Positions 2,730 through 7,345 of a stretch of DNA of 8,780 nt are shown here, piece after piece. Numbering within the stretch: position 1 is the stretch's first letter; every line of letters starts with the position of its first letter. Below the pieces are notes generated by a model that saw only the letters and a program-made list of their open reading frames with translations, was not told where the DNA came from and made no database searches. This DNA is from Chloroflexota bacterium (GTDB taxonomy: Bacteria > Chloroflexota > Dehalococcoidia > Tepidiformales > Tepidiformaceae). The DNA is taken from positions 1 through 8,780 of the forward strand of contig JANXYE010000448.1 of assembly GCA_025350285.1 (NCBI GenBank), written 5' to 3'. The translations under genes were made by a program, and so were the position numbers.

Positions 2730-3671
2730 ATGCAAACGGTGGAACTCGCACAGCTCGAAGCATTTCTCCAGGTGGCGCACCACCGTTCGTTCAGCCGGGC
2801 GGCGGAGGCGCTTTTCCTCACCCAACCGTCGGTTACGGCGCGTATCCAATCGCTCGAACGGGAACTGGGCGAACGGCTCTTCGAACGGACCGGGCGCAGC
2901 GTAACCCTCACCGATGCGGGCCGCGCCTTCATGCCGCACGCCCAACGCGCCCTCACCGCCGTCCAGGAAGGCACCGACGCCATTGAAGCGGTCCGCCACG
3001 GCGACGTCGGGAGCATCCGGATCGGCGCGAGTTCCAGCATCGCGACCTACATCCTGCCGGAGGTCTTCGCCCACTTTCGCGAGACTCGGCCGCGGGTGCA
3101 CATCCACCTCAGCACGGGGAACACTGAGGAGGTGATCGAGCGGCTCCTGGCCAGCGAGATCCACGTCGCCATCACCCGCCTGATCCAGCATCCCGAGGTT
3201 GAGTCGCTGCACCTCTACAATGACGACCTCGCCCTGGTCGTTTCGCCAAAGCATCACTTCGCGGCGAAGGGCCGGGTGACAGTCGCCGAAGCCGGGCGGG
3301 AGCCATTCCTCTTCTTCGAACGGAGTTCCAGCTACCACGGACTGATCTACAGCATGTTTCTCCGTGTCGGTGTCGTGCCAGAATCCGTCATGGAACTGGA
3401 CTCGATGGAGGCGACCAAGCACATGGTCCAGGCCGGGCTCGGCATCGCTATCCTGCCCGTCGCGTCGGTCGATCGCGAGATCCAGGCCGGCCAACTGGCA
3501 CGCGTCGATATCCGCGACATGGAACAACCGGCCCAGCGCGAGGTTGGGGTACACGTCGTCCGCAACCGCGCTATCACTCCCGTACTGAGAGACTTCTTGA
3601 AGCTCCTGACCTCTGAGTACGGCATCACGAACACCTTCGACGGACGCCGTGCCCCCGGGGACCCTGAGTAG
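2730..3671 (+). CDS. LysR family transcriptional regulator
   Basis: A 313-residue LysR-type regulator. Residues about 3-62 form the winged HTH (LAQLEAFLQVAHHRSFSRAA, then LTQPSVTARIQSLERELG, then LFERTGRSVTLTDAG). Residues about 94-300 form the periplasmic-binding-like effector domain starting SIRIGASSSIATYILP. The frame is open far upstream, but a start before 2730 would overlap the ferredoxin, whereas MQTVELAQLEAFLQV is a canonical LysR start. GGGGAG at 2715-2720 and GAGG at 2726-2729 precede the ATG. The stop TAG overlaps the next gene's GTG by one base (TAGTG), a sign of translational coupling with the amidohydrolase. LysR regulators often sit divergent from their targets; this one lies inside a same-strand series, so its target and inducer are not evident. 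The effector is unknown. Confidence 0.95.
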   Translation: MQTVELAQLEAFLQVAHHRSFSRAAEALFLTQPSVTARIQSLERELGERLFERTGRSVTLTDAGRAFMPHAQRALTAVQEGTDAIEAVRHGDVGSIRIGASSSIATYILPEVFAHFRETRPRVHIHLSTGNTEEVIERLLASEIHVAITRLIQHPEVESLHLYNDDLALVVSPKHHFAAKGRVTVAEAGREPFLFFERSSSYHGLIYSMFLRVGVVPESVMELDSMEATKHMVQAGLGIAILPVASVDREIQAGQLARVDIRDMEQPAQREVGVHVVRNRAITPVLRDFLKLLTSEYGITNTFDGRRAPGDPE

Positions 3672-6539: not shown

Positions 6540-7229
6540 TTACGGGCGAAGCCGCCAGAACTCACCAACCAGGCCCAGTCCGGCGAACACGGCCTCCGCT
6601 TCGTCGAGCGTCCTGCGCCGCCAACGCGGCTCACGCTTGTCCGTATACCAGAGTTGGGCCAGCCGCCAGCCCGTTTGGAGAGTCATCGTACCGCCCTGAT
6701 CGATCCGGTGCGCCTCCCGCCACTTCCGAGCGTGCCCTTCGTCCCGGAAGAGCAACATGGTCGTTCAGGTGTAGATGATGTCGTCCCACCAGTGCCGCGC
6801 CGGCACCCCAAAGTGAATCAACCCGGACCCTTCAACGCGCCCATCGCGAATGTCCACGCGCATAGCCTGGTCGCAGTCGCCGCATGAACAACGAATCGTC
6901 GCGTCTGTGCCAAGGCACGCGGCGATGCCAAGCGAGTCCCAGATACAGTTGCCCCACCAGTCACGCCCGGCCGCTGTCACCGCGAACGGGGTCGGGATAG
7001 CCGAAAATGGGTTGGCCATACGCACCCTGGAGGGGTCGTCCGGCTCGAGAACGATAGCGCGCGAGGCGCCCAGCCGCGCGAAAGACTCCATCACCACCGG
7101 CACATCCGCGTGCAGCTCCGCAGCCAGCTCGGCGGCGGATGACATGGATCCGGTCCTGATGAGCCCGTCATACAGTCCGACCCGCACCCTGCGGTCAACG
7201 TCCTCGTTGGTCTCCACAGCTGGCTTCAT
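6540..7229 (-). CDS. Alkylmercury lyase (MerB)-like protein, probable selenoprotein with in-frame TGA as Sec155
   Basis: Read through one TGA, this frame gives a complete 229-residue protein of the alkylmercury lyase family, which cleaves the C-Hg bond of organomercurials. A helical N-terminal domain (about 10-70) precedes MANPFSAIPTPFAV (71-84) and WWGNCIWDSLGIAACLG (91-107), where C95-X2-D98 matches MerB Cys96-X2-Asp99. C114, C116 and C119 follow; C116 has the spacing of MerB Cys117. HWWDDIIYT (146-154) leads into the TGA at residue 155, then TTMLLFRDE and a C-terminal domain ending VGEFWRLRP. The TGA aligns with MerB catalytic Cys159 ('C.....F' spacing kept). No other stop or frameshift occurs. 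Start ATG 7229 leaves a leader of about 29 bases after the TATACT box; ATG 7250 is the alternative. The main rival reading is a recent nonsense mutation of a Cys codon. No mer-type neighbour is present. Confidence 0.8.
6733..6754 (-). promoter_or_regulatory. Putative bacterial SECIS stem-loop
   Basis: In the minus-strand mRNA, ten bases after the TGA, TGCTCTTC pairs with GAAGGGCA as an 8-bp stem (one U-G pair) closed by the loop CGGGAC. The loop begins 18 bases after the TGA and has a G in its first two positions. As I recall the bacterial SECIS consensus (apical loop about 16-37 bases after UGA, small loop, early G), this fits. No bulged U like that of E. coli fdhF is seen. Confidence 0.6.
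6765..6767 (-). other. In-frame TGA, probable selenocysteine codon
   Basis: TGA between ACC (Thr154) and ACG (Thr156) of the MerB-like gene. The reading frame and family similarity continue directly on both sides. It is one base different from TGC or TGT, the codons for the cysteine expected here. Confidence 0.7.
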
Positions 7230-7264
7230 CACATCCCGTCCGGCGCGCATTGCGCGAAGGCGCC

Positions 7265-7270: not shown

Positions 7271-7345
7271 CAGGCTTCCGACAGTCGCCGGTGGGTCTCG
7301 GGTGCGATTCAGAGCTTTGCATGAGAGGCCGCGAGGGAGCCGGCC

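Follow-up and report, generated by a model that had tools for sequence, protein, structure and literature searches.

Does a single in-frame TGA within a gene resembling alkylmercury lyase (MerB) end translation, or is it read as selenocysteine (Sec), and what would the resulting protein do? This question is raised by an 8,780-nucleotide stretch of Chloroflexota DNA (contig JANXYE010000448.1 of assembly GCA_025350285.1; hereafter the window), where a first-pass annotation had noted an otherwise intact MerB-like gene split by one TGA and had proposed that this codon, falling on the third catalytic cysteine, is decoded as Sec. Both the single TGA and its position stood up to examination, and we place at roughly 0.68 the probability that the gene encodes a MerB-family protein with Sec at the third catalytic column that would cleave carbon-mercury bonds. 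The gene is encoded on the minus strand, a point left unstated in that annotation, and its features are as follows.

6540..7229, minus strand: MerB-family (PF03243) gene of 229 amino acids when the TGA is read through, from ATG at 7229 to TAA at 6542-6540
6945..6947, minus strand: codon for Cys95, on the column of MerB Cys96, the first mercury ligand (alignment to 5c17 and homologues)
6936..6938, minus strand: codon for Asp98, on the column of MerB Asp99, the general acid (homologue alignment)
6873..6884, minus strand: Cys116-x-x-Cys119 motif (alignment of Sec and Cys rows)
6765..6767, minus strand: in-frame TGA, residue 155 counted from the 7229 start, predicted Sec on the MerB Cys159 column
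6733..6754, minus strand: hairpin resembling a selenocysteine insertion sequence (SECIS), directly 3' of the TGA, with an 8-bp stem and the 6-nucleotide loop CGGGAC

The TGA at 6767-6765 is the sole internal stop of the gene, for which an alternative upstream start is possible at 7250. When it is not read through, two open reading frames (ORFs) are called, one ending at 6765 and another of 72 amino acids (6758-6540), as the first-pass annotation had anticipated. The read-through product scores 107 bits against the PF03243 MerB model (cut-off 27), and the match, covering residues 106-226 in a 260-amino acid reading begun at 7322, spans the TGA. The catalytic residues of MerB are Cys96, Asp99 and Cys159 in its own numbering. 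Cys95 and the TGA align with the two cysteines of 5c17, Asp98 is assigned to the Asp column from its spacing and from homologues, and homologues containing Cys at the TGA column confirm the third position; all three residues carry the numbers given by the first-pass annotation. In an AlphaFold model of the read-through product, matches to MerB and MerB2 lie far above everything else, giving a predicted MerB fold, and Cys95, Asp98 and Sec155 sit on the MerB catalytic columns, the third of these residues being Sec only if the TGA is decoded as predicted.

To compare this codon among relatives, we began with the host genome and those of 98 relatives, 99 in all, of which 15 contained a match. The best five matches, the window included, each had one TGA, which falls on the Cys column in all four of the relatives concerned. 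With one genome taken per species, a pattern scan then matched 297 stretches, 222 of them encoding relatives, and the best 80 loci were kept; a few of these share contigs with the 99-genome set, and two (L063 and L070) come from one assembly. At 68 of the 80 loci, TGA occupies the column, Cys and Asp occupy the first two catalytic columns, and there is no other stop, while the remaining 12 carry Cys at the TGA column and also Cys replacing Asp98. The TGA is therefore not peculiar to the window, and its recurrence goes well past what chance would give. Adding the window gives 81 rows (69 Sec rows and 12 Cys rows), in which the Cys95 column is Cys throughout (81/81) and the Asp98 column is Asp in all 69 Sec rows and Cys in all 12 Cys rows. 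The Cys-x-x-Cys motif, predicted to be a resolving or mercury-handling pair, occurs in 63 of the 69 Sec rows but in none of the 12 Cys rows, yet is also found in the Cys form P0014. A full-length relative, L019, which is on the same contig as L044, is 68% identical and has the same TGA. Sec forms occur in Chloroflexota, Actinomycetota, Acidobacteriota, Gemmatimonadota, Planctomycetota, Calditrichota, Myxococcota and others (phyla taken from genome record names), nearly all in metagenome-assembled genomes; one that is not labelled as such, Nocardioides sp. zg-1230 (L106), is presumably an isolate, and its best tRNA-Sec match scores 77.6 bits. Within Chloroflexota, 54 of 400 genomes had a match, of which the 16 best each contained exactly one TGA, the next five none, and weaker ones a mixture; here, the TGA column was checked for two matches (G000 and G017).

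On a 104-row tree, 4 changes are needed to account for the 69 Sec rows, and Cys rows are nested among Sec rows twice, once as a 19-row clade (99/96) and once as P0014 beside L072 (100/78). Because of this nesting, Sec may be older than Cys within the group, with the tree rooted only at its midpoint. The phyla are interleaved in the tree, which suggests lateral transfer.

A protein database search returned 306 matches. In 112 of the 120 listed, the sequence stops with the motif immediately preceding the TGA column (111 recognized by pattern and P0010 by eye, from proteins only, with the next codon not seen), while the 8 full-length proteins have Cys at the column. That so many homologues are called as ending there, and that other genes in the window end normally with TGA, would suit a real stop, arising in a pseudogene, from a sequencing error, or at the end of a truncated functional product. 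The part of the gene beyond the TGA, however, is under purifying selection, with dN/dS of 0.06-0.34 in 12 of 12 pairs, similar to the 0.07-0.40 found upstream (the pairs overlap in some of their members, and dN/dS came from two estimators), and the same TGA recurs at 68 of 80 loci, none of which has a further stop. Reassignment of UGA to tryptophan was also considered and rejected, since homologues have Cys at the column and TGA terminates other window genes.

The sequence that follows the TGA also argues against a real stop. Sec members usually have CTCTTCC-GGTC-GGAAGAG at this place, and the GGTC loop is present in 64 of 69 Sec rows versus 0 of 12 Cys rows. Of the 7 stem pairs, 41 Sec rows form 7, 22 form 6 and 6 form 5. 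Standard pairs fill 92.9% of pair cells over 68 distinct Sec rows, compared with 89.1% in shuffles, and two-sided changes are found at 5 of the 7 stem pairs, in 17 cells, where shuffles give 4.1 and slid controls 3-10; the hairpin stem thus shows compensatory changes. Synonymous codon choice at the hairpin is locked where the protein does not demand it: Arg is encoded by CGG in 62 of 64 cases at the hairpin but at 26% elsewhere in the same genes, and Ser by TCG in 59 of 64 cases but at 35% elsewhere. The five rows with TCA are the same five that have TGG, the C-G pair being kept as U-A, and these five are closely related.

The host carries Sec machinery: selA, selB, selC and selD, which the first-pass annotation had proposed looking for, are all present in its fragmented genome (3.24 Mb, 691 contigs, 82% complete). 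The tRNA-Sec gene (selC) scores 69.1 bits and has the anticodon TCA, SelB scores 311 bits (cut-off 242), SelA is matched at the ends of two contigs with 364 and 358 bits, and SelD scores 368 bits and has its own in-frame TGA within GGUASK. A tRNA-Sec search covered the genomes behind 38 of the 68 Sec loci and behind every one of the 12 Cys loci. The cut-off was passed in 36 of 38 Sec-locus genomes (34 of them scoring at least 55 bits, with G502 and G511 below the cut-off) and in 2 of 12 Cys-locus genomes (Fisher p 4e-7). Taken together, conservation of the TGA, the hairpin, purifying selection downstream and the host machinery make it very likely, as judged from nucleotide data, that the TGA is decoded as Sec. 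A pseudogene or sequencing error is rejected, because the TGA is shared together with a conserved, covarying hairpin by genomes of many phyla and the downstream dN/dS is low, and a real stop of any kind is very improbable. Each of the three findings that the first-pass annotation had said would refute its reading (a host lacking Sec machinery, an isolated TGA, a sequencing error) was checked and did not hold.

Two side observations concern selenium genes of the host and the window. The two SelA contig ends (L014 and L015, on host contigs C614 and C615) overlap by 363 bp at 95.3% identity, which points to a strain mixture in the assembly, and the two pieces are probably one gene. The LysR regulator at 2730-3668 on the plus strand of the window has as its best NCBIfam match the selenium metabolism-associated LysR model, at 198 bits, below the cut-off of 250.

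If Sec is inserted, cleavage of organomercurials by the product is probable, to judge from its fold and residues. In the mechanism that we propose, SelB, tRNA-Sec and the hairpin would insert Sec at the TGA, the Cys95 thiolate and the Sec155 selenolate would grip the mercury of an organomercurial, Asp98 would protonate the carbon leaving group, and Hg(II) would then be handed off, perhaps via the Cys116/Cys119 pair. Mercury is bound more tightly by selenium than by sulfur. An alternative is that the protein is a MerB-fold selenoprotein but not a lyase, acting on another organometal(loid) or an organoselenium substrate, or serving as a sensor through its N-terminal winged-helix part. We consider this unlikely, since the residues of the three catalytic columns are all retained, Asp98 being found in every one of the 69 Sec rows, and true MerB has the same N-terminal domain, MerB crystal chains aligning from model residue 6-11.

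A number of observations weigh against a Sec-containing organomercurial lyase, some touching decoding and others function. Sec status is predicted from nucleotide-level data. The stem alone is not sharply diagnostic of Sec rows, as Cys rows also pair (2 with 6, 6 with 5 and 4 with 4 of the 7 pairs). The window loop, CGGGAC, a form common to L044, departs from the usual GGTC, and the stability of the window hairpin is unexceptional (z -1.85, with 12 of 200 shuffles as good; z 0.07 for the 18-nucleotide core), as is that of the L106 and L071 hairpins (z about -1). A 54-nucleotide piece of the window adopts another fold, and scanning the window with Rfam yielded no match at gathering scores. The case for the hairpin therefore rests on the family, because the window hairpin taken by itself is unexceptional and the longer piece folds otherwise. 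The tRNA-Sec contrast is confounded by phylogeny, because most Cys-form genomes are Bacteroidota; 5 of 14 control genomes also pass the cut-off, and since 344 of 400 Chloroflexota genomes do so, the presence of tRNA-Sec says little within that phylum. As to function, the window protein is only 14-21% identical to solved MerB structures, and both curated MerB equivalog models are missed by a wide margin (NF009710, 27.1 versus 193 bits; NF033555, 21.6 versus 200 bits). Accordingly, we file it in the MerB superfamily and not as MerB proper. Neighbour clustering found no conserved neighbour, the largest cluster spanning 5 of 68 loci, and the gene appears to stand alone, outside any mer operon. The mercury link is one of homology only, because MerA exceeds its cut-off in 5 of 39 genomes, and the host, whose genome is 82% complete, is not one of them.

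The relatives also include a sister clade, clade B, in which the Cys96 column and the Cys159 column are both TGA in five members (L023, L026, L028, L031 and L033). One such gene is located as follows.

L028:1324-2025: MerB-like gene with two in-frame TGA codons

The double-TGA proteins have Glu at the place of Asp99, and their motifs are UGLE or UGFE at the first TGA and RUS, RUA or AUS at the second. In two other proteins of clade B, L025 and L029, the first column is Cys and the second is TGA. The GGTC hairpin follows the TGA of the second column in all 7 of these members, and the first TGA is followed by a predicted GC-rich hairpin in 4 of the 5 double-TGA members, L028 folding otherwise. 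Three further matches in G228 also have two TGA each, counted irrespective of column. A third group (P0123-P0140, P0166-P0254 in part, and L027) lies nearer to classical MerB; its entries are named Clostridia, Syntrophales and Chloroflexi, many of them end at GCT, GCA or GFT before the column, and most of those that are full length carry Cys there. Of the 47 members of this group that were scanned (alignment A4), 2 also hit the DF family (seleno)protein model and 1 a UxxU metal-binding (seleno)protein model, a hint that some are fused to further metal domains linked to selenium.

Selenium-using enzymes that would degrade organic mercury look far commoner than gene annotations show. Because 112 of the 120 listed homologues end before the Sec column, surveys of merB or of the potential for mercury demethylation would misread or miss these genes in several phyla of bacteria. 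We give about an even chance to the broader proposal that Sec organomercurial lyases form a large cross-phylum group, hidden by gene-caller truncation, with a sister clade that has two Sec. If this is true, the sister-clade enzyme would hold mercury with two selenolates, and biological breakdown of organic mercury would be widely selenium-dependent. To our knowledge, no characterised enzyme breaks carbon-mercury bonds with selenium, and the family makes such cleavage testable, with Cys-containing homologues as ready controls.

Several known systems can be compared with the window gene. The fdhF SECIS of E. coli is a hairpin that immediately follows the UGA, its GGUC loop lying some 18-19 nucleotides from that codon; the family hairpin is like it in its place after the UGA, in the distance of the loop and in the GGUC itself, and the window's own loop differs (CGGGAC).

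The closest published counterpart is SaoL, whose source study is reportedly that of Haft and Gwadz in 2023. In two papers, SaoL is a MerB-like organometallic lyase of the SAO system with a predicted Sec (PMC13188914, PMC9312934); it is the one MerB-like selenoprotein listed in reviews, as NF040728 with one Sec and the motif CU (PMC13188914), and is also among the selenoproteins listed in PMC9312934. The first-pass annotation knew of no characterised Sec-MerB, and among open-licence papers we recognised no description of this clade or of a double-Sec MerB (as far as the available parts go, MerB is absent from the main text of PMC2398784 and PMC12013277, and a search within PMC5029168 gave no hit), but the idea of a Sec MerB-like protein is not wholly new, since SaoL is already in print as a prediction. 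That the window gene is simply SaoL draws support from NF040728 being its best NCBIfam match and from both being MerB-like with one predicted Sec. The match, however, reaches 37.7 bits where the cut-off is 140, the TGA is preceded by Thr (T-U) in the window and by Cys in 0 of 69 Sec rows, unlike the CU motif, and no SAO model was found among the NCBIfam matches of ten other window proteins (LysR: best 25 of 54; the host elsewhere was unsearched). Membership is rejected on the scores and neighbours, and we regard this identity as highly improbable. A search of 61 genomes with NF040728 gave none above cut-off, and searches with L027 and alignment A3 (804 found, 120 listed) gave no true SaoL sequence among the matches scanned. 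In the scan of the 47 third-group members mentioned above (46 of those listed and P0145), 44 matched NF040728 (best E 8.5e-20), including P0190 (66.5 bits) and P0145 (67.1 bits at 1.6e-18), the best of the 47 being about 70 bits, judged by P0145, versus the cut-off of 140. Judged by the NF040728 model, the motif and the neighbours, the window clade differs from SaoL and is spread over Chloroflexota, Actinomycetota, Acidobacteriota, Gemmatimonadota and others.

Compared with MerB and MerB2 (PDB 3f0o, 3fn8, 5c17; PF03243), the window gene differs in its low identity, its sub-cut-off equivalog scores and its lack of conserved mer neighbours, and in having a TGA, predicted to encode Sec, at the third catalytic column.
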